A stretch of DNA of 64,000 bases, from contig JAFGRK010000018.1 of the NCBI GenBank assembly GCA_016935175.1, positions 1 to 64,000 on the forward strand. Direction: 5' to 3'. The notes beneath the pieces were generated by a model, which was given only the letters and a program-made list of their open reading frames with translations, ran no database searches and was not told the origin of the DNA. Position 1 is the first letter of the stretch. Each line of letters begins with the position of its first letter. The stretch comes from Candidatus Woesearchaeota archaeon. GTDB taxonomy: Archaea; Nanobdellota; Nanobdellia; Woesearchaeales; SM23-78. The position numbers and the translations under genes were made by a program. Shown piece by piece: positions 6,316 through 64,000 of the stretch.

Positions 6316-7302
6316 ATGGAAAGGCCGCCCATCCTTAAGGTCCAGCGCCTTACTAAGAGGTTCTGTAAGAAGACTATCCTAAGAGACATCTCGCTTGACA
6401 TTATTGAAGGGGAGATATTCGGTATTGTGGGCTCGAGCGGCAGCGGCAAGACCACCCTTCTCAAGACGATAGTGGGCTACTTGGCGCCTGAGCAGGGAGA
6501 TGTGAAGTTCCGTTATGATTACTATGTTAAGAAAAAGGATAAGGATGGAAAGCCGCTCTACGCCTCTGTTTATAGACAGCAGCAGATGGCAAGGAGCACT
6601 TTTGGATTTGCCAGCCAAGAGCCATCAATCTACCCCAAGCTGACTGTAAAGGAGAACCTGAAGTATTTCGGCTCCCTTTATAAGCTAAAGAAAAAGGCCC
6701 TTGAGTCGAACATAGATATACTTCTTGCGTTGATGGACTTGAAGGGCTCACAAAAGACCTTGGCAGGAGAGCTTTCTGGAGGGATGGAGCGAAGGCTGGA
6801 CATTGCTTGCGCATTGATTCATGACCCTGAAATACTTATTTTGGACGAGCCAACATCAGACCTTGACCCGCTCCTCCGCGACCATATATGGAGCTTGGTG
6901 CAGAAAATCAACAAGAAAGGCACAACCATAATCATGGCAAGCCACCACTTATCTGAGGTAGAGAACTTCTGCTCAAGGATAGCCATCATCAAGGACGGGA
7001 GAATAGTTGATGTGGCTAGCCCAGCAAGGCTCAAGACCAAGTATGCAGAGTCCCAGCAGATTAAAATCCAGAGCTATCCAGGAAGCTACGCAAACATCGT
7101 CAAGTCACTGAAAAAGCCAGGCAGCAAGCCGTTCGAGTTCAATATCAAAGGCTCAGAGCTGATATTATACTCGGATTATACCCAGGAGATTATGCATGAG
7201 TTGTTGCATACCTTGGAAGTGTTAAAGGAAGAGCTTATAGACATCAAGGTGTCAAGGCCAGGGCTTGATGAGCTTTTCCTAAAGCTAAACGCCAGAAAAT
7301 AA
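6316..7302 (+). CDS. ABC transporter ATP-binding protein
   Basis: Walker A GSSGSGKTT, signature LSGGMERR, Walker B ILILDEPTSDLD; ATG at 6316. Confidence 0.93.
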   Translation: MERPPILKVQRLTKRFCKKTILRDISLDIIEGEIFGIVGSSGSGKTTLLKTIVGYLAPEQGDVKFRYDYYVKKKDKDGKPLYASVYRQQQMARSTFGFASQEPSIYPKLTVKENLKYFGSLYKLKKKALESNIDILLALMDLKGSQKTLAGELSGGMERRLDIACALIHDPEILILDEPTSDLDPLLRDHIWSLVQKINKKGTTIIMASHHLSEVENFCSRIAIIKDGRIVDVASPARLKTKYAESQQIKIQSYPGSYANIVKSLKKPGSKPFEFNIKGSELILYSDYTQEIMHELLHTLEVLKEELIDIKVSRPGLDELFLKLNARK

Positions 7303-46891: not shown

Positions 46892-48313
46892 TTATTTGCC
46901 TTTGCCCTTGACCTTTATGCCTAGCTCGTCAAGCTGCTCATCTGTCACTTCAGATGGCGCATCCATCACAGGGTCCCTTGCAGACTTGTCTTTTGGGAAC
47001 GCAATCATCTCCCTTATTGAGTCTGCGCCGCTGATGACCATTAGCAGCCTGTCAATTCCAGGAGCAATCCCTCCGTGCGGTGGCACTCCGTAGCTGAAGG
47101 CTTCGAGCAAGTGCGCAAATTCTTTTTTCTGCTGCTCTGTAAATCCTATCAGGTCGAATATCTTGGCTTGGACAGCTGCATCATGTATCCTTATGCTTCC
47201 TCCACCCACTTCAAAGCCATTAAGCACCAGGTCGTGCTGGTATGACTTGGCCTTTCCAGGCTCCTTGTCCAGCAAGGGGATGTCTTCTTCCTTTGGGGCT
47301 GTGAACATGTGGTGTGAAGGCCCCCATTCCTGGCCTGCGCCGTGGAAGAAGTCTTCCTGGGTCTGCTTTACAAACAACGGGAAGTTGAGCACCCAGCAGA
47401 ATGCCAGCTCATCCTTGTCATTCTTGTCCTTCCTCATGTCGGGCTTGTCACTGCCGTACTTAGCCTTTGCATCTGCGTGGTTAATCCTTGGGAAAGGCAC
47501 CTGGCTTATCTTCTTGTCTGGGAAAATCTTTTTTATCATCTCAATGAACAGCTCTTCCACCAGGTTCAGGATGTCTTCCTGCTCTACAAAGCTCATCTCA
47601 ATGTCCAGCTGGTAGAACTCTCCAGGGCACCTGTCAGCCCTTGCATCCTCATCCCTGAAGCAAGGAGCAATCTGGAAATACCTGTCCATGCCAGCAACCA
47701 TCAATAATTGCTTGTACTGCTGGGGTGATTGCGGCAAAGCATAGAATTTTCCTTGGTGAATCCTACTTGGCACTAAATAATCCCTTGCCCCTTCAGGCGT
47801 TGACTTGGTAAGTATAGGTGTGGTTATCTCCAGGAATCCTTTCTTGTCAAGGTATTCCCTTATGAACTGGATAGCCTTATGCCTCAAGGTCATGCTCTTG
47901 ACCATCTTTGGCCTTCGCAAGTCCAAGTACCTGTACTTTAGGCGCACGTCCTCTGTTGAGGCAACATTCTCGCTGAGCTCCAAAGGAAGGGGGGCTGCTT
48001 TGCTCAGGATGTTGACTTCGCTTGCAGAGAGCTCAACTTCTCCTGTCACAAGCTCTTTTTTCACCTGGTTCTCAGGCCTCTTCTTCACTTCTCCCTTGGC
48101 CTGGATTACTGTCTCCCTCCTTATCTCACCGAGCTTCTTGGTAATCTCAGGGTTGACAAACACCTGGGTTATGCCATACCTGTCCCTTAGCATTATGAAG
48201 CTTAATTTCCCCTGAATCCTATGGGTCTCTACCCAGCCGCAAAGAGCCACTTTCTTTCCAGCATCACTTCCCCTTAATTCTCCGCAAGTATGTGTCCTTA
48301 GCATGCTTATCAC
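46892..48313 (-). CDS. aspS: Aspartyl-tRNA synthetase, bacterial-type but lacking the GAD insertion
   Basis: TPEGARDYLVPSRIHQGKFYALPQSPQQYKQLLMVAGMDRYFQIAPCFRDEDARADRCPGEFYQLDIEMSFV; KYGSDKPDMR followed directly by ELAFCWVLNFPLF. Confidence 0.94.
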   Translation of the reverse strand: MISMLRTHTCGELRGSDAGKKVALCGWVETHRIQGKLSFIMLRDRYGITQVFVNPEITKKLGEIRRETVIQAKGEVKKRPENQVKKELVTGEVELSASEVNILSKAAPLPLELSENVASTEDVRLKYRYLDLRRPKMVKSMTLRHKAIQFIREYLDKKGFLEITTPILTKSTPEGARDYLVPSRIHQGKFYALPQSPQQYKQLLMVAGMDRYFQIAPCFRDEDARADRCPGEFYQLDIEMSFVEQEDILNLVEELFIEMIKKIFPDKKISQVPFPRINHADAKAKYGSDKPDMRKDKNDKDELAFCWVLNFPLFVKQTQEDFFHGAGQEWGPSHHMFTAPKEEDIPLLDKEPGKAKSYQHDLVLNGFEVGGGSIRIHDAAVQAKIFDLIGFTEQQKKEFAHLLEAFSYGVPPHGGIAPGIDRLLMVISGADSIREMIAFPKDKSARDPVMDAPSEVTDEQLDELGIKVKGKGK

Positions 48314-48436: not shown

Positions 48437-49069
48437 TCACATCAAAAACTTCACTTCGCAGCCAGCGTTCTCCCTGAAAGTTTCAGCATCGCTTGCGCTG
48501 CCTACAATGGTGCCATAGTGCATGGGTATTGCTACATTGCACCTCTTGAAAGTCTTTGTGGCCTGGGCTGCTTCCATTGCGTTCATGGTATAAGTGCCTC
48601 CTACAGGCAAGAGTGCTATGTCAACATCAATGTCTTTCATCTCAGGTATCAGGTCTGTGTCTCCTGAATGATAAACCTTGACTCCGTTCATCTGGACTAT
48701 GAAGCCAACCCAGTCATTATCCTTAGGGTGGTATTGCTTGTTAATGTTATAGGCAGGCACAGCAGTGATAGTCTCGCTGTTAATCTTAATGGTCTTGCCA
48801 GGCTCAATAAGCACAATGCCCTTAACTTTGAGGTGGTTGAGCTTGCTCATGGCATCAGCTACTGTGATGATAATGGTGTTTTCATCGCTTATCATCTCAA
48901 CATCATTAGGGCTGCAATGGTCATAATGCGAATGGGTTACCAGCACGACATCTGCCTTTTCCAATCCAGGACCTGAAAGCTCAAAAGGGTCAATATAGAT
49001 GACCTTGCCGTTCTTGAGCTTAACAGAGGCATGATGGAACAATTCAATGTCGATTCCCAGTACTTTCAT
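48437..49069 (-). CDS. Metal-dependent hydrolase, beta-lactamase fold (UPF0173-like)
   Basis: VLVTHSHYDHCSPND, VYHSGDTDLIPEM, AIPMHYGT. Confidence 0.9.
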   Translation of the reverse strand: MKVLGIDIELFHHASVKLKNGKVIYIDPFELSGPGLEKADVVLVTHSHYDHCSPNDVEMISDENTIIITVADAMSKLNHLKVKGIVLIEPGKTIKINSETITAVPAYNINKQYHPKDNDWVGFIVQMNGVKVYHSGDTDLIPEMKDIDVDIALLPVGGTYTMNAMEAAQATKTFKRCNVAIPMHYGTIVGSASDAETFRENAGCEVKFLM

Positions 49070-49262: not shown

Positions 49263-52200
49263 ATGAAGAACCCATTTTATAGAGGGAGCGCTTTAGTCAT
49301 ATTTCTAAGCCTTATAGTCCTCGCCCTAGTTCTTGCTGCGCCTTCAGAAGATGAAGGCAAGACCACCCTTATTTCTGATCATGGTAAGGCCTATAAGGTC
49401 CAGGAAAATCCAACCATTGACTTTGACTATGAGAGAGGGTTCGACCCAATCAAATATGTAATCCAAATTTTCTCAGACCCAAGGGAAGCCAAGCTCACAA
49501 AAGACGGGAAGGAAATAGCTGCAGACATAAGAGTAGAGAAGACAGCTTACGGCAAGTACTCAGTTGAGATACCCAAGCCAAGGCAGTTCAAGCCAGGGCT
49601 CTATACTGTAACATTGACTAATGACGGAGAGACCATAGAGCAAGACTTCCTTTGGGGAGTGTTAGCTATCAACACGCATAAGTCAATCTACCTACCTGGG
49701 GAGGAAGCCTTCATAGCAATGGCAGTATTGGATGATGGGGGAAGGATGGTGTGTGATGCTGATGTGACACTTGAGATAACCAATCCTTCAGGAATAAAAT
49801 CAACCCTTAGCACTGGTGAAGGAACAATAGTTGTTTCTCCTACCTGCCATTATTATTCAGTCACTGACATGCCTGATTATTATTCTTATTACACTATGCA
49901 AGAAGCAGGCACTTATCAGGTAGTTCTTACAGCCATTACTAAGAATGGTGAGAGGACTCTTACAGACAATTTCTTTGTTCAGGAAACTGTTGATTATGAT
50001 GTTTCAAGGAAAGGCCCTACAAGGATTTATCCAAGGGATATTTACACAATGGAATTCACCATCACCCCCGGTAGGGCTTATTCTGGTGTTATCAGAGAGT
50101 ATGTTCCTGCTAGCTTTAAGATTATGCCTCAGGAGGGATTATCAGTTATGACAGTTGGTGATTTAAAGGTTCTTGAATGGAGAACAAGCCTTAGCCAAGG
50201 CCAATCCCAGGTCTTGAGCTATGATTTTGATGCTCCTGACATCTCACCTTATTTCTTTACTTTGGGAAAGCTTGAGATAGGCAACTGGCAAGAGGCAAGG
50301 GATTGGATGATTGCTAGTGATGCGGTTTATGTTGTTAATTACACTGGTGATGATACTTGGAGTGCCCCTGAAGGAATTGCTTGGGCATTTATAGAGTGCT
50401 GGGGCGGTGGAGGTGGTGGTGGAGGCTCAAATGCTGGTAAGACTAACTTCGGTGGTGGTGGTGGTGCTGGAGGTCAGTATGCTGCTAGCAACATTACTAA
50501 TCTTCCAGCAGGAAATTATGCTATTGTTGTTGGTAGTGCAGGAGCTGCTGGTCTTGCTGCTGGCGGCAATGGCGGTGCTGGTGGTAACAGCACATTCAAT
50601 GGGTCCACTGTTAAAGCTGTTGGAGGAGCAGGAGGAATTGCTAATGCAGGAGCAGGAGGCACTGGTGAAAATAGCACTGGAATTGGTCAAATAGTATATC
50701 GTGGTGGTAGCGGTTACACTGGAGGCGCTTCTGGCGGTGCTGGAGGCGGAGGAGCTGGAAGTAGTGGTGCTGGAGGTGACGCTACTGGTGTTGGCACTAA
50801 CCCTGGATCTGGCACTGCTGAATTCGGCGGTGCTGGCGGCAATGGTGGCGCTGATGCTGATGGCAGCCCTGGAAGCGATTATGGCGGTGGCGGTGGAGGA
50901 GGCGAGACTGGGCCGTCTGGTGGAAGCGGTACTCCAATGGCAGGTGGTGCTGGCGCTCAGGGATATGTAAGGATTACTTATATGATTGCTGACGCTGCTG
51001 ATGAGGAAGCTCCAACAGTCACTATCAACACAGGTCTCAACAATACTGTCTTCACTACTAGAACTCCTACTTTTGACTATACTTTCTCAGACAGCATTAG
51101 CGAATATGCTAACTGCACCCTATACATTAATGATACAGCCCGTAATACTACCCTTAATGTTGCTAACGGCACAGCAACCAAGTACCTAACAGCCAACACT
51201 TCTCTTGTTGACAGCAACTACTCTGTTTACATCAACTGCACTGATGCCTCTGGCAATGTTGGCATGTCTGGTGTTTTGAGGGTTGCTGTGGATGCTACTG
51301 CTCCAGCTATTACAGGGGTGCTTAACCATAGCATCACAGACACTTTTGCGATGATTAACTGGACTACTGACCAGATTGCCAATGGCAGTGTCAAGTACGG
51401 CACAGGGCTTGACATGAGCACCGGGACTGTAATTCATACAAGCCTGCTCTCTGCGCATAATATCTCTTTGGCTGGCTTGAGTGCTAGCACGCTTTACTAT
51501 TACAATATCACTAGCTGTGATGCCCATGGCAACTGTAATATGACAGGGCCTTATAACTTCACCACTACAGCAGCTCCTGATAATACTCCTCCTACTGTGA
51601 ATATCAATGCTGGGCTTAACAACACTGTTTTCACTACTAGAACCCCTACTTTTGACTACAATTTTAATGACACCACTAGCTCTGTTGCTAATTGCACTTT
51701 GTTCATTAATGATACTGCCCGCAATACTACCCTTAATGTTGTTAATGGAACATCAACGAAGTACCTTACATCTGATTCTTCTCTTGTTGACAGCAATTAT
51801 TCTGTTTACATAAACTGCACTGATGCCTCTGGCAATATTGGAAAGTCTGATGTTTTAAGGGTTGCTGTGGATGCTACTGCTCCTGCAATCACTGGTGTGC
51901 TTAACCATAGCATCACTAGCAGCTTTGCCATGGTTAATTGGACTACTAGCGAGCTTGCTAATGGCAGTGTCAAGTACGGCACAGGGCTTGACATGGGTAC
52001 TGGGACTGTGGTCCACACCAATCTGCTCACTGCGCATAATATTTCCCTTAGCGGCCTGGGCAGCACCACATTCTACTACTATAATATTACTAGCTGCGAC
52101 CCTCATGGATGGTGCAACATCACAGGACCTTATAACTTCACCACCTCAACAGGACCAGATACCACTGCGCCAACAGTTTCCATCAACACTTCATTGGATA

Positions 52201-55200
52201 ATTTCTGGACCAATGATAACACTCCTGAAGTCCAGTATTACTTCACTGACAGTAGGAGCAGCACTGCTAACTGCACCTTGTACTTTGATGATGCAGTATA
52301 TAATTACACAGCCAGTGTGGCCAATGGCACAGCATGGAAAGCCATGATTGCTAACAATTCCTTGCCTGATAAGAACTACAGTGTGTATGTGAACTGCACT
52401 GACAACAGCAGCAACATAGGCAAGAGCAGCGTAGTGCACATAATTGTTGACACAGCACTCCCGGGTGTGAGGGCAATAACTCCTATAACAGCTAACTGGA
52501 GCTCAACAGCCACCCCTAATTTTATTTTTAACTTCACTGACAGCTCAAGCTCAACTGCTAACTGCACATTATACGTTGGCACTAGCAGCAGAGGCAACAA
52601 TGCCAGCACTATCAACATTACAGCCACCACCATAACTTCTAGCTCTCTCTCAGCAGGAACTTATTCCTGGAATGTGACTTGCATTGACATGGCTGGTAAC
52701 AGTAATGGAAGCACTGCCAGGACCATAACCATTGATAGCTCTGCTCCTACTGTCACTCCTAGCAGCCCAGGAGACAATGAATGGACGACTGACACAACCC
52801 CTGATTTTGTGTTCACAACTACAGATTCGCTAGATAACCTTCTCAACTGTACCCTCTGGGTTGATGGCACTAGTTATGCTAACAATGCCAGCACCATAAA
52901 TAATACAGCCACTACTCTTACTGCCAGCCCTGCCTTGTCTGAGGCTAGCCATTCATGGGCTGTTAATTGCACTGACGATGCCAGCAACACAGGCCACACC
53001 ACTGCCAGGACTATTTACATTGACAATACCGCTTCAACAGTCAATATCAACATCACCCAGAACGGCTCTGCATTTGGAACAAGCACTCCTATCATCGGGT
53101 TTAATTTCAGTGACAGCGTAAGCACTACTGCGAACTGCTCATTATACTTCAATAACACAAAATACAACCACACCAACAACATGAATGTAAACACCCAATA
53201 TTCCTTGCTTGTAAATACAAGCCTTACAGACAGCAATTACACCGTTTACATCAACTGTTCTGACAAGGCTGGCAAAATAGGCAAGTCAGGAGTGCTGACA
53301 GTTGAGATAGATACAAGAGCCCCAGCAATAACTAGTGTGAATAATAATAGCATCACCACGAGCACTGCCAGGGTTAATTGGACTACTAATGAGGAGGCTA
53401 ATGGCAGTGTCAAGTATGGCACAAGCCTTGCTATGTCTGACGGAACTTCTGTTCACACTAATCTGCTTGCTTTGCATAATGTCTCGCTTTCAGGACTTAG
53501 CAGCGAGACAGTTTATTATTATAACATCACTAGCTGCGATGCGAGCTCCAATTGCAACATTACCGGTCCCTACAACTTCACCACGGCGTCTGGAGCCACA
53601 CCCGACACAACCGCCCCCACAGTCAATATAAATGCGCTTTTGGATAATATCTTCACAACAGATACTACGCCTGATGTTGACTTTAATTTCACTGATAGCA
53701 GGAGCAGCACTGCTAACTGCACGCTATATTTTGATGATACAGGCAGGAATCATACGAGCGGCATAGCGAATAACTCCCAGAAGACCCTGACAGCGAATGC
53801 CACCTTGAGCGATAAGAACTATAGTGTCTATGTGAACTGCACTGATAATTCTAGCAACATCGGCAAGAGCAGCGTAATCCGCATCATCCTCGACACTACC
53901 GCTCCCACCGTCAGGATTAACGCAACCCTTAATAACACCATCATTGCCAGCTATACTCCTAGCTTTGACTTTAACTTCACCGATGGCTTAAGCCCTTCTG
54001 CTAATTGCACTTTGTACGTAAATGGCACAGGCTATGATTATGTGGCTAGTTTAGCTAACTTCACCCAAGACACCCTTACAGCCAATGCTAGCGTCCAAAA
54101 CGGGAATTACTTTGTGAATATTAATTGTACTGACAGGGCTGGTAGGGTAGGAAAATCAGGCACTCTTAACATCACTATCTATGTTGCTTCATATGTTATA
54201 ACTAATCCTCCTGCTGATACTAAGTTTGTGTTAACTAATGACACAGGCACGGATATTACAAGCATAGGTCAGACTGGCATAATTAATGTGCTTGCAGGAA
54301 AATATGCAGGCTCAGGCAATTATTCGGCAATTTTGATCTTCAACTTCTCAGAAGACATAGACACGACCAACCTGGTACTTGATATAAATCTCTCAAGCAG
54401 GAAATCACTGTTCCATAATAGCTCAACTATAACCGGCTTGATAAACATATCGCTCTTAATCCCTAATGTGAGGAATACCAATAAGGTTTACATATGCCCT
54501 GGAGCTACAAGCCTTGAGCAAGTCAATGCTAGCTGCCCAGGGGTGATAAACATAAGTGTAGGCCAGGAAAGCAACGGCATGACAGTCTCCTCTGTCTCTT
54601 ATGATGGAGAAGACTATTATCTCGTGACCAACATCACTGGCACTGGAGGAGGAGAGCCAGACCCTACTTCGCCTCTGCAATGCGTGTTTGTCCAAGACAC
54701 TACTTGCCCTGCAGGCACTGCCAAGCTTATTGGCTTAAAGAATGACTCCGGTGGCTATATTAATGCCCATGCCCAGAACAAGACCATTGAGACCTATCCT
54801 TATTCATTATGCTGCAACAGCACCAATGCCTCAATTACCATATCCACTGACTGCCCGGGTGACGACACAGTCATAAGGCTTTCTAACCAGACCAACGCCC
54901 ACGTGGAGCTTGGGAACCTAAGCAACTATTCATACACTGCGTGCATAGGGAGTGACTGGAAAAAAGCTAATTGCGAATACCCAACTAGCAGCTGCGCTGA
55001 GAATTATGCCTGCATCATGAGCATTGCCAGCAGTGAAGGAGACAATCAGACCAATGCCCATGTCGGAGCCTGCTTAACCTATGACCAGAAGGTTTGCTGT
55101 GCCCTGACCAATTTTGCTCCTCCAGCCCCAACCCTTGTAAGCCCAGACGATGATAATACCACTGTGTTTGATAGGAGAGTCAATTTTGTCTGGAGCTCTC

Positions 55201-55841
55201 CAGGAGCAGATCCTGATGGGGATACTGTAGATTACACCCTCAATGCAAGCTGTGGAGGATGCTCTGCAGGCTGCTATGAGCCATCCATATCAGACATATC
55301 CACCGCCAATTACACAGTCCCGAATGCCTTGTGCGTCGATGTGGACTATAACTGGACTGTGAGCGCCTGCGATACCTATGATAGCTGCAATACATCTACA
55401 CAATTCACTTTCAGGATTACCAGCGTAGCAGACATGATACTGACAGTGAATGCCACCAGCTTTGGGGACATGGCATTAGGAGAGAACAATGATACTGAGG
55501 ATGATAGCCCTGCTCCAATGGTAGCAAGGAACGTAGGGAACGTGCTGCTCAATGTGACTATTAACGCAACCAACCTTTTCAGCACAGTAGATATGAATGC
55601 CTATAACTTCCAGTTCAAGGCTGATGACGAGCCAGAGCCAGGTAGCTACGAGATTAGCTGCTCACAGGACTCTGCATTCGCCTTCATGAGCAATGTCACT
55701 CCAAAGACCCTGTTCTGCAACCTATCCTATGTCGACGCTAATGATGAAAGCCAGATAGAATACAATGTGACTGTGCCCATTAGCGAGCCGCCAGGTGCCA
55801 AGAGCAGCAGTATAGAGGTAAGCTTTGTTAAGAGTGAATGA
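49263..55841 (+). CDS. Giant secreted surface protein: MG2-like N-terminal domain, glycine-rich domain, Ig/FN3-like repeats
   Basis: Signal peptide; INTHKSIYLPGEEAFIAMAVLDD; WSAPEGIAWAFIECWGGGGGGGG; repeated TANCTLYFDD...DKNYSVYVNCTDNSSNIGKS; many N-x-S/T sequons. Confidence 0.92.
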   Translation: MKNPFYRGSALVIFLSLIVLALVLAAPSEDEGKTTLISDHGKAYKVQENPTIDFDYERGFDPIKYVIQIFSDPREAKLTKDGKEIAADIRVEKTAYGKYSVEIPKPRQFKPGLYTVTLTNDGETIEQDFLWGVLAINTHKSIYLPGEEAFIAMAVLDDGGRMVCDADVTLEITNPSGIKSTLSTGEGTIVVSPTCHYYSVTDMPDYYSYYTMQEAGTYQVVLTAITKNGERTLTDNFFVQETVDYDVSRKGPTRIYPRDIYTMEFTITPGRAYSGVIREYVPASFKIMPQEGLSVMTVGDLKVLEWRTSLSQGQSQVLSYDFDAPDISPYFFTLGKLEIGNWQEARDWMIASDAVYVVNYTGDDTWSAPEGIAWAFIECWGGGGGGGGSNAGKTNFGGGGGAGGQYAASNITNLPAGNYAIVVGSAGAAGLAAGGNGGAGGNSTFNGSTVKAVGGAGGIANAGAGGTGENSTGIGQIVYRGGSGYTGGASGGAGGGGAGSSGAGGDATGVGTNPGSGTAEFGGAGGNGGADADGSPGSDYGGGGGGGETGPSGGSGTPMAGGAGAQGYVRITYMIADAADEEAPTVTINTGLNNTVFTTRTPTFDYTFSDSISEYANCTLYINDTARNTTLNVANGTATKYLTANTSLVDSNYSVYINCTDASGNVGMSGVLRVAVDATAPAITGVLNHSITDTFAMINWTTDQIANGSVKYGTGLDMSTGTVIHTSLLSAHNISLAGLSASTLYYYNITSCDAHGNCNMTGPYNFTTTAAPDNTPPTVNINAGLNNTVFTTRTPTFDYNFNDTTSSVANCTLFINDTARNTTLNVVNGTSTKYLTSDSSLVDSNYSVYINCTDASGNIGKSDVLRVAVDATAPAITGVLNHSITSSFAMVNWTTSELANGSVKYGTGLDMGTGTVVHTNLLTAHNISLSGLGSTTFYYYNITSCDPHGWCNITGPYNFTTSTGPDTTAPTVSINTSLDNFWTNDNTPEVQYYFTDSRSSTANCTLYFDDAVYNYTASVANGTAWKAMIANNSLPDKNYSVYVNCTDNSSNIGKSSVVHIIVDTALPGVRAITPITANWSSTATPNFIFNFTDSSSSTANCTLYVGTSSRGNNASTINITATTITSSSLSAGTYSWNVTCIDMAGNSNGSTARTITIDSSAPTVTPSSPGDNEWTTDTTPDFVFTTTDSLDNLLNCTLWVDGTSYANNASTINNTATTLTASPALSEASHSWAVNCTDDASNTGHTTARTIYIDNTASTVNINITQNGSAFGTSTPIIGFNFSDSVSTTANCSLYFNNTKYNHTNNMNVNTQYSLLVNTSLTDSNYTVYINCSDKAGKIGKSGVLTVEIDTRAPAITSVNNNSITTSTARVNWTTNEEANGSVKYGTSLAMSDGTSVHTNLLALHNVSLSGLSSETVYYYNITSCDASSNCNITGPYNFTTASGATPDTTAPTVNINALLDNIFTTDTTPDVDFNFTDSRSSTANCTLYFDDTGRNHTSGIANNSQKTLTANATLSDKNYSVYVNCTDNSSNIGKSSVIRIILDTTAPTVRINATLNNTIIASYTPSFDFNFTDGLSPSANCTLYVNGTGYDYVASLANFTQDTLTANASVQNGNYFVNINCTDRAGRVGKSGTLNITIYVASYVITNPPADTKFVLTNDTGTDITSIGQTGIINVLAGKYAGSGNYSAILIFNFSEDIDTTNLVLDINLSSRKSLFHNSSTITGLINISLLIPNVRNTNKVYICPGATSLEQVNASCPGVINISVGQESNGMTVSSVSYDGEDYYLVTNITGTGGGEPDPTSPLQCVFVQDTTCPAGTAKLIGLKNDSGGYINAHAQNKTIETYPYSLCCNSTNASITISTDCPGDDTVIRLSNQTNAHVELGNLSNYSYTACIGSDWKKANCEYPTSSCAENYACIMSIASSEGDNQTNAHVGACLTYDQKVCCALTNFAPPAPTLVSPDDDNTTVFDRRVNFVWSSPGADPDGDTVDYTLNASCGGCSAGCYEPSISDISTANYTVPNALCVDVDYNWTVSACDTYDSCNTSTQFTFRITSVADMILTVNATSFGDMALGENNDTEDDSPAPMVARNVGNVLLNVTINATNLFSTVDMNAYNFQFKADDEPEPGSYEISCSQDSAFAFMSNVTPKTLFCNLSYVDANDESQIEYNVTVPISEPPGAKSSSIEVSFVKSE
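51000..52160 (+). repeat. Intragenic tandem duplication of an Ig+FN3 unit (about 590 nt, two copies)
   Basis: TTCACTACTAGAAC(T/C)CCTACTTTTGACTA and AATGGCAGTGTCAAGTACGGCACAGGGCTTGACATG recur in register. Confidence 0.85.
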
Positions 55842-55896
55842 TGTGATGATGTGATGATTAGCAAAACCAAAGCTAGCCAAAAAGAGGTCACCTAGA

Positions 55897-57072
55897 ATGA
55901 AAATAAAACCTTTCAAAGAGAAGAGCTTATTCCCATTTATATCGCTGATCTTAATCCTATTTTTGAATTTGGCGCTAAGTGCAGCACTAGTAACTTCCCT
56001 TGGGGTCAGCCCTGCAGGCAAGACTGTCACATTCACCCCAAATACTGATTTTGAAATAGATTTTTACATAATCAACTCTGAAAGGAATAATATGCAGATT
56101 AGCGTTGGAGGAGTAGGAGAGCTTTCAGACATGATGTTCTTTGACCAGCAGATAATAACCCTGACTGAGTCAGATGATAAGGTCCCTTTTAGGCTAATCC
56201 TGAAATTGCCAGCTGGCATGGAACCTGGCATCAGGACCAGCAACATCAAGCTGACTCCTATTCTGCCAGAGAATGAGGACGATATGCTCTCTGCCTATCT
56301 AGCACCGCAGATACCTATCAAAGTCAGGGTGCCATACCCGAGCAAATACGCTGACATATCCATAGTTGTGCAGAGCGTGGATGAAGGCACCCCAGTACCA
56401 ATATATATTGAGTTTGACAACCTAGGCTCTGAAAGGATAACAAGCGCAGGGGCAGAGCTAAGGCTTTATGACCCTGAAGGAGAGCTGATATCAGAAATGG
56501 CAGCTCCTGAGATCAGCATTGAAAAAGACTCACTTGGCAAGACCAAGGCAGAGCCTGCCCCGATCCTAAGAAGAGGAATATACAGGGTAGTAGCTGATGC
56601 TTACTATGATGGTGTTGATAAGGTTATAGACATGAATATCTCTCTTGGAGACCCCTTGCTGACTGCAAGGGAGCTGCTGACTAAGCAGCTAGAGATACAG
56701 CCAGTCAGCAAGGTAGGCTTGAAGGCTTATAATGATTGGAATGCAGAGCTCTCAGTCACAGGGTTCTTGGAGATAGAGGACAAAAAGACAGAGATGCCTG
56801 TGTTCAAGTTCGAGAAGAATGCAGAGCAGGAGATAAGCAGCTTCCTTGAGACATCAGGGCTTGAGCCTGGAGAGTACAACCTCACAGTCACATGGGTTTA
56901 TGCTAACCAGATGAAAAGGGACGTGTTCCCTGTCAAGATTATTGAGAAAAAGCCAGAGCCAGCCATATCCTGGCCAAGGATACTCATAGGGTTGGCTGCC
57001 TTGGCAGTGATGATAGCGACCTTGGCAATTTTGCTCGCATTGCTGAAAAGAAAAAAGCCTCGCACAAACTAA
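55897..57072 (+). CDS. Secreted protein with C-terminal membrane anchor, unknown (NEW3/COG1470-like beta domains)
   Basis: Signal peptide, beta-rich ectodomain, C-terminal TM ILIGLAALAVMIATLAILLALLKRKK. Confidence 0.8.
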   Translation: MKIKPFKEKSLFPFISLILILFLNLALSAALVTSLGVSPAGKTVTFTPNTDFEIDFYIINSERNNMQISVGGVGELSDMMFFDQQIITLTESDDKVPFRLILKLPAGMEPGIRTSNIKLTPILPENEDDMLSAYLAPQIPIKVRVPYPSKYADISIVVQSVDEGTPVPIYIEFDNLGSERITSAGAELRLYDPEGELISEMAAPEISIEKDSLGKTKAEPAPILRRGIYRVVADAYYDGVDKVIDMNISLGDPLLTARELLTKQLEIQPVSKVGLKAYNDWNAELSVTGFLEIEDKKTEMPVFKFEKNAEQEISSFLETSGLEPGEYNLTVTWVYANQMKRDVFPVKIIEKKPEPAISWPRILIGLAALAVMIATLAILLALLKRKKPRTN

Positions 57073-57212
57073 TGACATACCAGTATCATCCAATATCATC
57101 TAGTATCATATCCGGTATCATATTAATACTCATTAAATAATCATTAAGAGGGTTAAAGAAGCCCAAAGGAGCGAAACCTTTAAATAGGTATGCTTACAGA
57201 AATGGAGGTATT

Positions 57213-57770
57213 ATGGCAAGTTCGTTTGGTAATGCAATAGGCTTCATGGGAGAATTAGGAGTCTATGACGTGGTGCTGCCTTTCTTGATGATATTCACCC
57301 TTGTCTTTGCAATACTTGAGAAGACCAAGATATACGGCACAGAAAAGATTGGTGGTCAGGAGTACACCAGGAAGAACCTTAATGGCATGACAGCCTTTGT
57401 AATGGCATTTTTTGTCGTCGCATCAACCAGGCTGGTAGCAGTCATCAACGAGGTCCTGGCAAGCACAGTGCTCCTTCTCTTGCTTTCAGTATGCTTCCTG
57501 CTCTTAGCAGGCAGCTTCCACTCTGGCAAAGAGGAATTCTTCCTCAAGGGAGGCTGGAACAAGCTCTTCATGTTCATCATGTTCATCGGCATAGTCCTGA
57601 TTTTCCTGCACGCGCTGGGCTGGCTCGATATAATCTGGGTAAGCCTAATCCATAATTTTGACTCAGTAATCACCTCTACCATAGTCCTCCTGGTAATAGT
57701 AGTAGTTGCGATAGTCTATATAACAGGAGGATTTGACAAGAAGAAAAGTGGAGGAAGCAAAGAAGGATAA
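57213..57770 (+). CDS. Multi-TM membrane protein (paralogue 1)
   Basis: GVYDVVLPFLMIFTLVFAILEKTKIYG; SD GGAGGT. Confidence 0.8.
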   Translation: MASSFGNAIGFMGELGVYDVVLPFLMIFTLVFAILEKTKIYGTEKIGGQEYTRKNLNGMTAFVMAFFVVASTRLVAVINEVLASTVLLLLLSVCFLLLAGSFHSGKEEFFLKGGWNKLFMFIMFIGIVLIFLHALGWLDIIWVSLIHNFDSVITSTIVLLVIVVVAIVYITGGFDKKKSGGSKEG

Positions 57771-57863
57771 GGGCAGGATAAGTGCAAGATATAAAAGCCT
57801 AAGTGCAATAAAAAACGAAAACATAATAAGCAAGTTATGTTATAAAAAAGCCAAAGGAGGTTA

Positions 57864-58466
57864 GTGAAAATGGTGTTTCAGAACTTTATATATATGTTGG
57901 ATATGTGGGGAGTGACAGATGTTCTTTTGCCGTTTATACTGGTGTTTACCATAGTCTTTGCCACATTGCAGAAGACCAAGATTCTTGGTGATGGCAAGAA
58001 AAACTACAACGTAATGGTAGCCCTAGTCATGGGCTTGGCAGTTGTCATACCGCACATAGTGGGCAGGTACCCTTTCAACTTTGACCCTGTCAATGTGATA
58101 AATGCATCACTGCCCCAGGTATCAATAATCCTAGTGGCAATAATAATGCTGCTGCTGATAATAGGTATATTCGGGAATGAGATAGACATCGCAGGTACAT
58201 CCCTTGCAGGATGGGTTGTACTGCTTGCCATCATTGCAGTGTTACTGATATTTGGTTCAGCAGTCGGCTGGTTCCCATTGCCAATCTACCTGAACTTCCT
58301 GCTTGACCCAGAGCTCCAGGCTCTCATAGTGATGATTCTTGTCTTTGGCATCATTATCTGGTTCATAACCAAGGATGATACCCAGAAGGAACAAAAAGGA
58401 GAGAAGGGTTTAGGCCACTTCCTCGAGGAGATGGGCAAGGGACTAAAAAAGAAAGGTGGAAAATAA
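57864..58466 (+). CDS. Multi-TM membrane protein (paralogue 2; ATG 57870 also possible)
   Basis: GVTDVLLPFILVFTIVFATLQKTKILG. Confidence 0.8.
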   Translation: MKMVFQNFIYMLDMWGVTDVLLPFILVFTIVFATLQKTKILGDGKKNYNVMVALVMGLAVVIPHIVGRYPFNFDPVNVINASLPQVSIILVAIIMLLLIIGIFGNEIDIAGTSLAGWVVLLAIIAVLLIFGSAVGWFPLPIYLNFLLDPELQALIVMILVFGIIIWFITKDDTQKEQKGEKGLGHFLEEMGKGLKKKGGK

Positions 58467-58571
58467 GCTTAAAGCCCTAACAAATTATTTTATTAGCTTT
58501 TTTACTTATGATTTTTTGACTAACTGATAACACAGACATGATTAAGTTCCATAATAATCCCTAAAATTAAA

Positions 58572-59186
58572 ATGGCCACACTCCTTGATGTCGGATTACT
58601 AGAGCATTTCGGGATAATCTTTGTAATCCTTCTTGTATTCCTCATCCTCTTCGGCCTTCTGGAATATATCAAGGCCTTTGGCGAGGGAAAAAAGGGCATG
58701 CATGCCATGATAGCCCTTTCAGTGGCATTCCTCTTCCTTGTCTCAAAGCTAGCCACTAACATGGTGTCCTTCATGGTGCCCTGGTTTATGGTGGCTGTCA
58801 TCTTCATCTTTTTACTCTTATTCCTCATAAGGATGTTCGGGGTTGGAGAAGGCGACATGGTAAAGCTTATCAAGGACCCTAATGCCTACCCATGGATAAT
58901 AGCCATAGCAGTGATTATACTCTTGTTCGCCTTGAGCAACACTTTTGGCCAATCCCTGCTTGAGAAAGGCGGAGGCGGTGGAGGCGCTGGCACTCCCACA
59001 TCAGACCCTGCTATAAGCCAAGACCCAGGCACAATATCACCTGATTACAGCACTACCAGCACAGCAACATCAAGCTTCGCAACTAATTTCCTTAACACGT
59101 TAAGGAATCCGAAAGTTCTTGGGCTATTGTTCATATTCTTAGTGGGAATGTTCGCACTTATCTTCCTGACCAAGACTGCCAAGTAG
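58572..59186 (+). CDS. Multi-TM membrane protein (paralogue 3, divergent)
   Basis: LLEHFGIIFVILLVFLILFGLLEYIKAFG; Gly-rich linker GGGGGGAGTPTSD. Confidence 0.78.
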   Translation: MATLLDVGLLEHFGIIFVILLVFLILFGLLEYIKAFGEGKKGMHAMIALSVAFLFLVSKLATNMVSFMVPWFMVAVIFIFLLLFLIRMFGVGEGDMVKLIKDPNAYPWIIAIAVIILLFALSNTFGQSLLEKGGGGGGAGTPTSDPAISQDPGTISPDYSTTSTATSSFATNFLNTLRNPKVLGLLFIFLVGMFALIFLTKTAK

Positions 59187-59295
59187 GAGAAGGCTAAGAT
59201 AAGAATAAAAATCCTAAAATAAGAAAATAACCTTTCTAGGGGCTAATCTTTATTCTTTATCAGGCAGCGGCCTTTATGAGATGTTTTTTAAGTTT

Positions 59296-59898
59296 TCAGA
59301 TCGGCCCTTTTTTTAAGGCTTGGGTTATCCTTGCAAGCTCGCTCACATTCTCAGTGAACAAGGGCAGGACCTTGGAGAACACCTTTTCCATGGCCTTGAC
59401 TTCAGCACCCACTTCCAGGATGTTCTTGTCATATTCCCCTATCTTTCCGATAACCGCCTGGTGGAGCTTGTCAAAGCTGTCCTGAAGGCTTTCAAAACGC
59501 TGCTCAATCCTGGCAAGCTTGTTCTCCACCTCGTTCTTCCATTCAACAATCTTGTTAATATCCTTGCCTAGCTCATCCCATTTCTCCTCAATCACGCTCT
59601 CGATGAGCTCCTCAACTTCCTCATTACCCATTCCAACCATGCTTCCTCCCTCCTCATAGCCTTGTCCAAGCCCCTGGCTTGCATCCCCAGCACCGCTAGG
59701 CAGCGGCGCATTGCTTCCCCCTTGGAAAGCTGGCGCTCCAGATACCAAGTCTGCCTGGTTTAAGGCATCGAATATCTGCGTGGATGAATACCCATTCCTC
59801 TGCAAAGCCTGTACAATCTGGTTATTGTCAAAGCCCTTTATCCTCATAGCCCTGACTTGGTCAATAGGCAGGTTATCAGGCTTATTGAACAAAGGCAA
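59296..59898 (-). CDS. Soluble helical/coiled-coil protein with N-terminal UBA-like segment
   Basis: IDQVRAMRIKGFDNNQIVQALQRNGYSSTQIFDALNQA; C-terminal coiled coil. Confidence 0.78.
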   Translation of the reverse strand: MPLFNKPDNLPIDQVRAMRIKGFDNNQIVQALQRNGYSSTQIFDALNQADLVSGAPAFQGGSNAPLPSGAGDASQGLGQGYEEGGSMVGMGNEEVEELIESVIEEKWDELGKDINKIVEWKNEVENKLARIEQRFESLQDSFDKLHQAVIGKIGEYDKNILEVGAEVKAMEKVFSKVLPLFTENVSELARITQALKKGPI

Positions 59899-60003
59899 CC
59901 ATGCACCTCTTTTGCTTCAGCGCAATCTTTTATAAAAATTCACTGACACTTTTCAAATTTATAAAATCCAGCTATATAAATGTTATGTTGTAACCCCGGC
60001 TAT

Positions 60004-60169
60004 GTTGAAAAAGTCACCCTCGGCACCCCGGCTGGGGTGACCCCCGCCTCTGCAGCCATTGTGCAAGCCATTCGCAAAGCTCATGGCGTTGCACTTGCAG
60101 CAGGTGCTCAGAAGTGCGCTTCTGGCACCGCAAGAGGTTACTCTTGCAGGCTGCGGCAACTTTTTCAAC
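60004..60169. repeat. Structured intergenic element E3 (same family as E1/E2 with an extra double-hairpin insertion)
   Basis: Outer IR GTTGAAAAAGT/ACTTTTTCAAC; CACCCCGGCTGGGGTG; GCAGCC/GGCTGC; inner GCCAT[TCGCAAAGCTC]ATGGC; extra GGTGC-CAGAAG/CTTCTG-GCACC and GCAAGAGGTTACTCTTGC. Confidence 0.82.
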
Positions 60170-60209
60170 GCACCTGTTGTAACCCTGTGGTCTTTAGCCT
60201 ATTTGCAGC

Positions 60210-60662
60210 CTATTGCTTCCTTTCACTCAACAGCTTTTCCCTGACCTTCTCCTCAAGCATCTTCTTGAGCTCAGCTCTCGTCACAAAATTCATAGGCTGC
60301 CATATGTCTAGGTAGCGCTCAACCACCTTGAAATCATTCTTGCTCACCAAGTTTTTTATCTCACTGCTGATGAGCCTTAGCTTGTCCTTGATGTCATTTA
60401 TGTCGCGCTTGACTTCAACAGTATCATCTGACAAGAGCTTCACATCAGCCCTTATGTCCTTGTCCATGGCTATTATGCCCTGCTCAGAAGCCTGCAGCCT
60501 GCCCCTTAGGTTAGAGTACCTTTCCTCAAGAATCCTAAGGTTAGCTGCAAGGCTATTGACGCTCTTGGCAATCCTGCCAACCATCTCTATATCAACATCC
60601 TGCTTCCTAAGGTGCTCCTCGGGTGGAGGCGGCTGTCCTGCCACAAAACTAGGGTCAACCAT
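60210..60662 (-). CDS. Coiled-coil protein
   Basis: Heptad-rich ORF (NSLAANLRILEERYSNLRGRLQASEQG...). Confidence 0.75.
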   Translation of the reverse strand: MVDPSFVAGQPPPPEEHLRKQDVDIEMVGRIAKSVNSLAANLRILEERYSNLRGRLQASEQGIIAMDKDIRADVKLLSDDTVEVKRDINDIKDKLRLISSEIKNLVSKNDFKVVERYLDIWQPMNFVTRAELKKMLEEKVREKLLSERKQ

Positions 60663-60811
60663 GAGATTAGTGTCTTGCTCCTTTAGTATTTAATGTTTTT
60701 GGTATGAATATTTACAATAAATCCCAGCCTAGTGATAACTTAAAATTTGATTATGCCCCATCATATTATTATTTTATAATTATTCTTATTGTTGATAGTT
60801 TAAGCAAAAGA

Positions 60812-60819
60812 TTTATATA
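60812..60819 (+). promoter_or_regulatory. TATA box TTTATATA upstream of secretion ATPase
   Basis: Motif about 75 nt upstream of TTG 60889. Confidence 0.55.
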
Positions 60820-60888
60820 CCTTGCTTGGCGTATTTGAATCTGGCTAGATAAAGCTATAGAAAATTTGAAAAAAGAGGGCGGGATTAG

Positions 60889-63186
60889 TTGATTACGGAC
60901 AAGGGAAAGCCAGGGCTTCCTTCAGAGGTGGTGAGGGAAGGAGAGGACACTATTCTTAGGATTAATTGCGATGAACTCACCACAGTGCCTTCTATCGAGG
61001 AAAACCCAAGCCTAATGTCCTATACTATTGACAGGCTTATTGAGAATAAGGCCACTACCAAGATTGTCTTCACCCAGAAAAGGGACTATGAATACGACTA
61101 TGCCCAGACCCGCCTGCTGCTTGAAATGGCCTTGCTCTATAACAGGCTGATAAAGCAGAAAGACCTGTTCAGCTATGAGGCTATGCGCCTGAAGACAGCT
61201 CCGAGGTATGTCGATAGCATCTACACCCAGATTCACCAGCTGATTTTTGACATATTGAAAAAAGATCCTATAACCTGCTATACTGAGCTTAGGAGGCTGC
61301 TAAGGCATGAGAAGATATCAGCTGATGCTGAGCAAGGGGAAGCAGCCAACGCCCACAGGCTATACGTCAAGCTTATCACTTTTCTGTTGCAGGAGCTTGA
61401 CAAGACCAGGCTGATAACCATAGCAATGCCCTTCCTTCCAGGGCATAAGCCCTATGACAGGAGCATTTACACCAAGATATTCACTCCTACCATCAAGCCT
61501 GACTTCATGTTCACCAAGCTCATGGCTACCTATCCTAGGGGAGGGGTAGAGCTTGAGAACTATAATGTCGGCAACACAGAAGTGGTTGTTTTTGACCAGG
61601 AAGATGATGTGCAATACCTTTATCACATAACCCCTCCTGAATTTAAGCTTAACGAGGAAGAATACGAGCTGCTTGACCTTGCAAGGAATATCATAGCAGA
61701 GCATAAGCCAACAAGGCAGGAATTTATTGACCCGACCAGAATGAGGGAGGTATTCTATAATGTCGGGCATGACTTATTAGAGGAGCTCTCAACCTACAGG
61801 AATGTGAAGGTTAATGATGAGAAGCTTCACGAGCTAACCATGATACTAATAAGGTACACAGTCGGGTTTGGACTTATTGAAGTCTTATTAGAGGACCCGA
61901 GGATACAGGACATAACCTTCAACAGCCCTCCAGGCCAGAGCCCGATATTCCTAGTGCATCAGGATTACGGTGATTGCAAGACTAACATAATACCAAGCAT
62001 AAGCGATGCTGAGAGCTGGGCATCCAAGCTAAGGATGATTAGCGGAAGGCCATTGGACGAAGCCAACCCTGTGCTAGACACTGAGATAACCATTCCGGGC
62101 ATTGCAAGGGCAAGGGTAGGCGCAATAGCCCCTCCCCTGAATCCTTTTGGGATAGCATATGCTTTTAGGCGCCACCGTGACAAGCCATGGACCCTACCTT
62201 TATTTGTGCACCAGAAAATGATAACCAGCCTTGCAGCAGGGCTAATAAGCTTCATAGTGGACGGCAACAGGACATTATTAGTGGCAGGAACCAGGAGTGC
62301 AGGAAAGACCAGCCTGCTAGGGAGCGTCATGGTGGAGATAATGAGAAAATACAGGATCATCACCATCGAGGACACATTAGAGCTGCCTACTGAAAGCTTG
62401 CGCAGCCTAGGGTATAATATCCAGCCAATGAAAGTGGCATCAGCACTATCAAAAGGCTCAGCAGAAGTGCCTGCTGATGAAGGCATAAGGACCACGCTAA
62501 GGCTGGGGGATTCTGCGCTTGTCGTGGGAGAAGTAAGGAGCACTGAAGCAGCTGCCTTGTACGAGGCTATGAGAGTAGGAGCCCTTGCTAACGTGGTAGC
62601 AGGAACCATCCACGGAGACAGCCCTTACGGAGTATTTGACAGGGTGGTCAATGACTTGAAGGTCCCAAGGACCAGCTTCAAGGCAACAGACATAATAATC
62701 GTCGCTAACCCTATCAGGAGCCCTGATGGGCTGCACAGGTGGAGGAGAGTCACCCAGATAACCGAGGTGAGAAAGGAATGGGAAGATGACCCGCTGCGCG
62801 AGCATGGCTTTGTTGACCTAATGAAGTATGACGCCAAGACCGACCAGCTAGAGCCTACTGACGAGCTGATTAATGGCGATAGCGACATCCTCAAGGCAAT
62901 AGCAGGCAATGTAAAGGACTGGGCAGGCAACTGGGATGCTGTCTGGGCTAATATCCAGCTTAGGGCCAGGATGAAGGAAGAGCTGGTCATGACTGCAGAA
63001 TCAGAGAAGAACATGGACTTATTAGAGGCCAAGTTTGTCATCCAGTGCAATGACCATTTCCACAAGATATGCGACAAGGTAAAGGAGAAGACAGGCAAGT
63101 TGGATGCTGACAGGATATTCTTTGAGTGGAAGGAATGGCTTCACAGGGAGATACGCAAGGAGAAGAGCAAACTAGGCCGGGTTTAG
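60889..63186 (+). CDS. Type IV pilus/archaellum-type secretion ATPase (GspE/VirB11 superfamily)
   Basis: LLVAGTRSAGKTSLLGSVMVEI (Walker A), RIITIEDTLELP, ALVVGEVRSTEAAALYEAMRVGALANVVAGTIHGDS. Confidence 0.93.
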   Translation: MITDKGKPGLPSEVVREGEDTILRINCDELTTVPSIEENPSLMSYTIDRLIENKATTKIVFTQKRDYEYDYAQTRLLLEMALLYNRLIKQKDLFSYEAMRLKTAPRYVDSIYTQIHQLIFDILKKDPITCYTELRRLLRHEKISADAEQGEAANAHRLYVKLITFLLQELDKTRLITIAMPFLPGHKPYDRSIYTKIFTPTIKPDFMFTKLMATYPRGGVELENYNVGNTEVVVFDQEDDVQYLYHITPPEFKLNEEEYELLDLARNIIAEHKPTRQEFIDPTRMREVFYNVGHDLLEELSTYRNVKVNDEKLHELTMILIRYTVGFGLIEVLLEDPRIQDITFNSPPGQSPIFLVHQDYGDCKTNIIPSISDAESWASKLRMISGRPLDEANPVLDTEITIPGIARARVGAIAPPLNPFGIAYAFRRHRDKPWTLPLFVHQKMITSLAAGLISFIVDGNRTLLVAGTRSAGKTSLLGSVMVEIMRKYRIITIEDTLELPTESLRSLGYNIQPMKVASALSKGSAEVPADEGIRTTLRLGDSALVVGEVRSTEAAALYEAMRVGALANVVAGTIHGDSPYGVFDRVVNDLKVPRTSFKATDIIIVANPIRSPDGLHRWRRVTQITEVRKEWEDDPLREHGFVDLMKYDAKTDQLEPTDELINGDSDILKAIAGNVKDWAGNWDAVWANIQLRARMKEELVMTAESEKNMDLLEAKFVIQCNDHFHKICDKVKEKTGKLDADRIFFEWKEWLHREIRKEKSKLGRV

Positions 63187-63311
63187 TCAGGATTAATAAG
63201 GGCAATAAACAGCCAGTAAGAATGACCAAGGTTAAGTTATCATAAGCACTTACTCATCACAAAGGCACTAAATCATCACTTTCATAGATTGCATAAGAGG
63301 CTAAAAAACCA

Positions 63312-64000
63312 ATGGCCACTGAAAAAGACCAATTATCGCAGCTAAGGGCAAAGTATGAGAAGCAGATACAAAAGAGCTTTGGCGAGAAATCAGACCACAG
63401 GGGCAGCCCTGGGAAGCCAGAGGACCAGCCCCTGACTTCAAAAGATTATGATGAGTTCAAGAAAGAAAACCTATCTGCACATCTTTCTGCTTATGAGAAG
63501 CTATGCAACTGGTCAGAGAAATTGCTGAAGGCAGAGCCTGACAAAAAAAAGCTTCCTGAGCTTGAAGAGGCAATCAAGATATGCCACTTGAACGTCACGC
63601 CACAAGGAGTGACCAGCCTTTCTTTGACAGCGCCATTGATAGTAGCCTTAGGCCTGATAACCATAACTTACCTAATCCCTTCTTTTATATCGCCTGGAAG
63701 CGGCAGCATGTTCTTTGTAATGTTCGGGCTATTCGCAGCAGCAGGGATGATAATACCCATCCAAAAGATGCCTTTTTTTCTTGCCAATAACTGGAGGATG
63801 AAAGCAAGCAACCAGATGGTACTTTCCATATTCTACATAGTCACTTACATGAGGCACACCAGCAACCTTGAGAGGGCTATCAGCTTTGCAGCAGAGCACC
63901 TAGCCCCGCCTCTCTCATTAGATCTGAAAAAAGTGCTTTGGGACATAGAGTCTGAGAAATTTGACTCGCTAAAGGAAAGCCTTGATGACTACCTCCAGAC
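63312..64000 (+). CDS. TadC/FlaJ-like membrane protein, truncated by window end
   Basis: ATG 63312, frame open to the end of the window (MATEKDQLSQLRAKYEKQIQKSFGEK...); TMs LIVALGLITITYLIPSFI and FFVMFGLFAAAGMIIPI; LSIFYIVTYMRHTSNLERAISFAAEHL; absent from ORF track. Confidence 0.85.
   Translation, partial: MATEKDQLSQLRAKYEKQIQKSFGEKSDHRGSPGKPEDQPLTSKDYDEFKKENLSAHLSAYEKLCNWSEKLLKAEPDKKKLPELEEAIKICHLNVTPQGVTSLSLTAPLIVALGLITITYLIPSFISPGSGSMFFVMFGLFAAAGMIIPIQKMPFFLANNWRMKASNQMVLSIFYIVTYMRHTSNLERAISFAAEHLAPPLSLDLKKVLWDIESEKFDSLKESLDDYLQ

Follow-up and report, generated by a model that had tools for sequence, protein, structure and literature searches.

Genes of the locus

The window analysed here is a stretch of 64,000 nucleotides from a Candidatus Woesearchaeota archaeon. 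Toward its end lie genes for two secreted proteins and for parts of a putative envelope machine, of which the last runs on past the window. Genes marked as core belong to a conserved unit described below.

49263-55841, plus strand: giant secreted protein of 2192 aa with Ig-like repeats; genus-restricted neighbour, not core
55897-57072, plus strand: secreted protein of 391 aa with a signal and a C-terminal anchor; genus-restricted neighbour, not core
57213-57770, plus strand: M1, polytopic membrane protein of 185 aa, first paralogue, with the motif YDVVLPFLMIFTLVFAILEKTKIYG; core
57864-58466, plus strand: M2, paralogue of 200 aa with a basic, probably cytoplasmic tail; core
58572-59186, plus strand: M3, divergent paralogue of 204 aa with an S/T-rich linker before the last helix; core
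59296-59898, minus strand: CC200, cytoplasmic protein with an N-terminal UBA-like helical motif, a variable Pro-rich linker and a C-terminal coiled coil; core
60210-60662, minus strand: CC150, cytoplasmic coiled-coil protein with the conserved C-terminal motif Y-W-P--F-T; core
60889-63186, plus strand: secretion ATPase of 765 aa, T2SSE/VirB11 family (PF00437, 3.4e-13); core
63312-64000, continuing to position 65579 of contig C32, plus strand: TadC-like platform, a single long protein of 755 aa; core

The initial annotation described a giant secreted protein lacking a C-terminal transmembrane segment and a secreted partner with a C-terminal anchor, and both descriptions hold. The giant has an N-terminal signal, and Pfam recognises Big_13 repeats, a glycine-rich domain and an MG2-like piece within it. 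The two coiled-coil proteins, the secretion ATPase and the TadC-like platform that had been reported are also present. Transcription of the coiled-coil genes runs toward M3 and away from the ATPase gene.

M1, M2 and M3 are true paralogues, with hhalign E values of 2.9e-36 for M1-M2, 5.7e-18 for M1-M3 and 1e-17 for M2-M3. The sequence signature that had been ascribed to all three is carried by M1 and M2 and not by the M3 of the window, which has IIFVILLVFLILFGLLEYIKAFG and lacks DV-LPF. Some M3 relatives do bear the motif, for example that of locus L083 (IFPALLVFVLVFAILEKTKMLG), and in almost every complete locus M3 comes last of the three. M1-M3 constitute a new membrane protein family, no known family being recognised in Pfam or NCBIfam. 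AF2 models of M1 (pLDDT 76.9) and of M2 (pLDDT 81.6, from an input alignment that mixed M1 and M2) each consist of five long hydrophobic helices and have no match among PDB folds at E<=0.001. The lack of a match to any unrelated characterised family is in line with the initial annotation, which knew of no function for the paralogues. The triplet also appears to be novel in that it is absent from the openly accessible literature text examined, figures aside. Counts of Lys and Arg residues, read by the positive-inside rule, would place the N-terminus outside and the C-terminus inside, clearly for M1 and more weakly for M2, in which the second inner loop contains neither residue. With the C-terminus inside, the conserved KTK..G segment would be cytoplasmic.

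The Walker A motif of the ATPase (GTRSAGKT) is intact, and its residues are conserved throughout the family alignment. The nearest solved structure is the archaeal GspE 2OAP (1.5e-29), followed by CpaF and FlaI. Among NCBIfam models the protein falls near FlaI and TadA, far under both cut-offs. The closest ATPase and platform found outside the phylum are encoded on Haloterrigena plasmids, at 35-37% identity, and the platform profile matches, in two blocks (E 6.4e-42), the 'secretion system protein' encoded there beside the related ATPase. The platform has no Pfam match of its own, T2SSF included, so its TadC/GspF-type identity comes only through homology to this Haloterrigena protein. On the plasmids (L246, L247), the ATPase/platform pair adjoins a DUF7311 protein and a single-TM protein. 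In the congener G005, the ATPase (L037 3513-7301) is broken near residue 550 by an intein (Intein_splicing 9.3e-18, LAGLIDADG_3 1.4e-15), and the 1966-aa ATPase frame of G197 contains two insertions, probably two inteins.

The ATPase matches the NCBIfam FlaI model with an E value of 1.6e-32, and two cytoplasmic coiled-coil proteins adjoin it. These features are what would be expected of a divergent relative of the rotary archaellum, with CC200/CC150 standing for ArlC/D/E and the ATPase and TadC for ArlI/ArlJ. CC200 also gives a weak match to FlaC_arch (E 0.041), an assignment that was dropped because it is not reproduced across 28 members. However, the FlaI score is 112.9 bits, where the curated cut-off is 550, and neither coiled-coil protein matches archaellum families reliably; Pfam matches to CC200 are all weak and inconsistent. 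FlaH/ArlH, FlaF/ArlF, FlaG/ArlG and archaellins go unrecognised among the clusters of conserved neighbours from 107 loci, as judged from the listed sequences. An archaellum relative is therefore an extremely improbable identity for the locus.

A conserved seven-gene unit

M1-M3, CC200, CC150, the ATPase and the TadC-like platform form a conserved unit of seven genes. A scan of named genomes yields 80 loci, and the relatives it recovers come almost entirely from Woesearchaeota/Nanoarchaeota MAGs. In most loci with enough flanking sequence, M1, M2 and M3 follow one another in the same direction, CC200 and CC150 are reversed, and the ATPase and TadC resume the direction of M1. Identical gene order extends beyond the Woesearchaeota order to further orders of the class. 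Clustering of open reading frames from 107 loci, on several of which the contig stops inside the unit, finds the ATPase in 102, TadC in 98, CC200 in 77, the M family in 75 and CC150 in 73. The runner-up family from outside the unit reaches 33. Recurrence of this architecture across dozens of genomes rules out chance. Relatives of the aspartyl-tRNA synthetase-like (46892-48313) and metal-dependent hydrolase-like (48437-49069) genes upstream of the unit in the window occur in 26 and 13 of the 107 loci, respectively, which suggests an old housekeeping setting. Two loci in AB_1215 bins, titled Aminicenantes bacterium (L116) and Methanosarcinales archaeon (L140), carry a typical woesearchaeal unit and are suggestive of misbinned contigs.

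Presence of the unit is nearly uniform. The ATPase is found in 185 of the 193 genomes of the window's order, and a profile search detects M1 relatives in 220 of 236 genomes in a phylum sample. When 116 genomes are scored for both proteins, 111 have both, three have neither and one is discordant in each direction (Fisher p 6e-5). Genomes without both M1 and the ATPase are G003, G046, G072, G203 and G248; discordant genomes are G117, G199 and G234, and in G117 the ATPase lies about 1.1 kb from a contig end. Where the locus is split (L164, L170 and L172, of genomes G233, G256 and G195), the M1-M3 triplet stays intact. Gene order and shared presence are the links between M1-M3 and the ATPase, and conservation of the triplet alongside it suggests that the module belongs to the base of the machine. 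The unit is kept even in genomes of about 0.5 Mb. It is missing from some genomes with a completeness rating of 97-98%, which suggests that it is not strictly essential.

In the initial annotation, the giant, its partner, the paralogues, the coiled coils, the ATPase and TadC were grouped as one dedicated host-contact or secretion apparatus whose genes should co-occur elsewhere. The giant, the partner and M1 do share a strand with short gaps, and the partner and the C-terminal part of the giant hold the same place within the genus. Co-occurrence in other genomes is nevertheless limited to the seven genes of the unit. Relatives of the giant match only its C-terminal ~245-385 aa, within proteins of 410 aa and 723 aa from the genus; the 410-aa orthologue in G004 covers the C-terminal ~385 aa alone and lacks the Ig array. 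The partner has relatives at 41-52% identity, again only in the genus, and neither protein has relatives in the other named loci. Upstream of M1, other genera carry housekeeping genes, often on the opposite strand. Since the giant and the partner are confined to the genus, they fall outside the conserved unit, and a single apparatus that includes them is very unlikely. They are best read as surface-protein genes inserted beside the unit, and their genus-specific products may use or decorate the structure that it builds.

Pilin-like genes and prepilin peptidase

The locus extends further in several other orders of the class. About six to nine genes encoding a leader plus one helix stand in series downstream of TadC in G285, G311, G300, G309 and G220. 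A protein is called pilin-like here if it has a leader and one TM helix, and Pfam recognises none of these candidates. At least three single-TM proteins with a K-K-G/A leader follow TadC in 8 of 14 loci from outside the window's order (seven genomes) versus 0 of 35 inside it (p 7e-6); no such runs are found upstream of M1. Peptidase_A24 closes the pilin-like run in G285 and G309 (L278, L281), above the Pfam cut-off, and is encoded shortly downstream of the run in G311 and G300. Within the window's order, the 35 loci have no pilin-like genes in or beside the unit. The genome from which the window derives does contain candidate proteins with KKG/KKA leaders, on contig C1 (L288, with a KKA-leader protein at 6413-6952), and a prepilin peptidase elsewhere (L289 7284-8150, PF01478 2.1e-12). 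It also has three further T4P loci, separate from the unit, on contigs C11, C14 and C15. At each of these there is a separate ATPase together with two platform proteins of half size, and pilins with leaders are encoded nearby.

The unit's ATPase is the sole T4P-type ATPase in 18 genomes, if shorter, weak PF00437 matches of 425-660 aa are assigned by inference to the PIN/KH type of which the accessible text of PMC4858521 speaks. Prepilin peptidase is retained in 16 of the 18 and is not seen in G153 and G082. Proteins with KKGxLELSxN-like leaders are present in all 18, and the canonical EYLMTYGWA pilin is present in two. As a strict marker of the unit the KKGxLELSxN family was discarded, being present in four of five genomes without the unit. 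Prepilin peptidase is likewise found in four of these five, so both may serve other machines too. One unit-less genome, G072 (91% complete), has no T4P-type ATPase above the cut-off yet keeps a prepilin peptidase and pilin-like proteins.

These distributions bear on whether the unit makes a filament at all. Its ATPase and TadC might instead act on M1-M3 as an ATP-driven membrane machine without pilins, serving secretion, envelope remodelling or signal transduction. This explanation first seemed favoured, because a strict scan for canonical class III leaders finds no convincing pilin in the near-complete sole-ATPase genome G025 and the canonical pilin is missing from most sole-ATPase genomes. 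It also accords with the lack of pilins at the locus in the window's order, and with conservation of M1-M3 that is about equal to that of the ATPase. It was overturned by a looser scan of the whole G025 genome, which reveals three tandem clusters of KKGxLELSxN-like proteins, and by the cassettes and prepilin peptidase that follow TadC in other orders. Peptidase retention in most sole-ATPase genomes also argues against it. A machine without pilins is now an unlikely explanation.

A candidate pilus-like membrane engine

The pilin-like cassettes and prepilin peptidase after TadC make a lineage-wide T4P-like assembly machine the best reading of the unit. We assign a probability of roughly three in four to the reading that the seven gene products together are the membrane engine of a type IV pilus-like (type IV filament) system of archaea, one that is kept throughout the class. 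The idea of a dedicated apparatus in the initial annotation is supported by the pilin-like genes and prepilin peptidase that follow the unit in other orders; inclusion of the giant is what lacks support. Organisms carrying the unit are tiny, mostly symbiotic archaea. To our knowledge, few envelope machines are understood in DPANN archaea.

Prepilin peptidase would trim the pilin-like subunits, and the ATPase, coupled to TadC, would extract these subunits from the membrane and polymerise them. Much as in type IV filaments, the platform may be turned or lifted by ATP hydrolysis and would add membrane-held pilins to a filament as it grows. Around the platform, M1-M3 would provide an additional membrane module of five-helix proteins, their conserved EKTK..G loop facing the cytoplasm. 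CC200 and CC150 are candidate cytoplasmic scaffold proteins or regulators in a position comparable to that of ArlC/D/E in the archaellum, and may link the ATPase to the M1-M3 module or regulate the ATPase. The pilin-like genes would sit elsewhere in the genome in the window's order and after TadC in other orders. Filament formation, topology, contacts among the parts and function are proposed here from gene content and order.

The machine may produce a pilus or a pseudopilus that serves secretion; alternatively, it may make the base of the attachment organelle of Nanobdellota. Cryo-ET of YN1 and Nanobdella has revealed an organelle of this kind, made of cone, portal and filament, whose proteins are unknown and which the authors suggest may be ubiquitous in Nanobdellota (accessible text of PMC11420986). 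A specific proposal, though a decidedly unlikely one, is that this organelle is built or powered by the unit, in which M1-M3 would serve as a collar embedded in the membrane. The unit nonetheless offers a small, well-defined set of DPANN genes for localisation or tagging.

The closest described counterparts are archaeal T4P, in particular clade 4F, whose ATPase also occurs in nanoarchaea, where cognate pilins were not identifiable (Makarova, Koonin and Albers 2016, accessible text of PMC4858521). Both systems pair a T2SSE/VirB11 ATPase with TadC, a coiled-coil protein is reported in halobacterial 4F loci, and in other orders the unit is linked to pilin-like proteins and an A24 peptidase. The ATPase of the window may be the nanoarchaeal 4F type; it is near to a halobacterial ATPase. 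However, the three five-helix paralogues and a second coiled coil of the unit form an invariant module that the accessible text of that paper does not describe, and its pilin-like genes are unlinked in the window's order. The archaellum resembles the unit in having a related ATPase and cytoplasmic coiled-coil accessory proteins, but differs in that the unit's ATPase is far below the FlaI cut-off. Bacterial Tad pili (CpaF/TadA, TadB/C) share the ATPase family, CpaF being among the nearest solved structures. In contrast, the unit belongs to an archaeal envelope, its locus has no recognised secretin, TadZ or Flp pilin, and M1-M3 have no known Tad counterpart.

Pilus clusters without annotated pilins are described in Nanohaloarchaeota and Undinarchaeota (PMC9563170), and dark-matter pilins in DPANN islands (PMC6393860). 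These clusters resemble the unit in their TadA/TadC-type genes and poorly conserved pilins, but the accessible text of the two papers, figures aside, contains neither the membrane triplet nor the order of the unit. The present results suggest an answer to the missing nanoarchaeal pilins of PMC4858521: they may have unusual leaders and be linked to the unit in some orders and relocated in others. Another conserved protein, of 70-90 aa with one to three predicted helices (EF.IMKLVLDKFLW.G), is encoded between or beside KKG-leader pilin-like genes in several genomes, at L288 6969-7199, L286 7893-8129, L291 7895-8131, L292 8305-8514 and L237 11510-11770.
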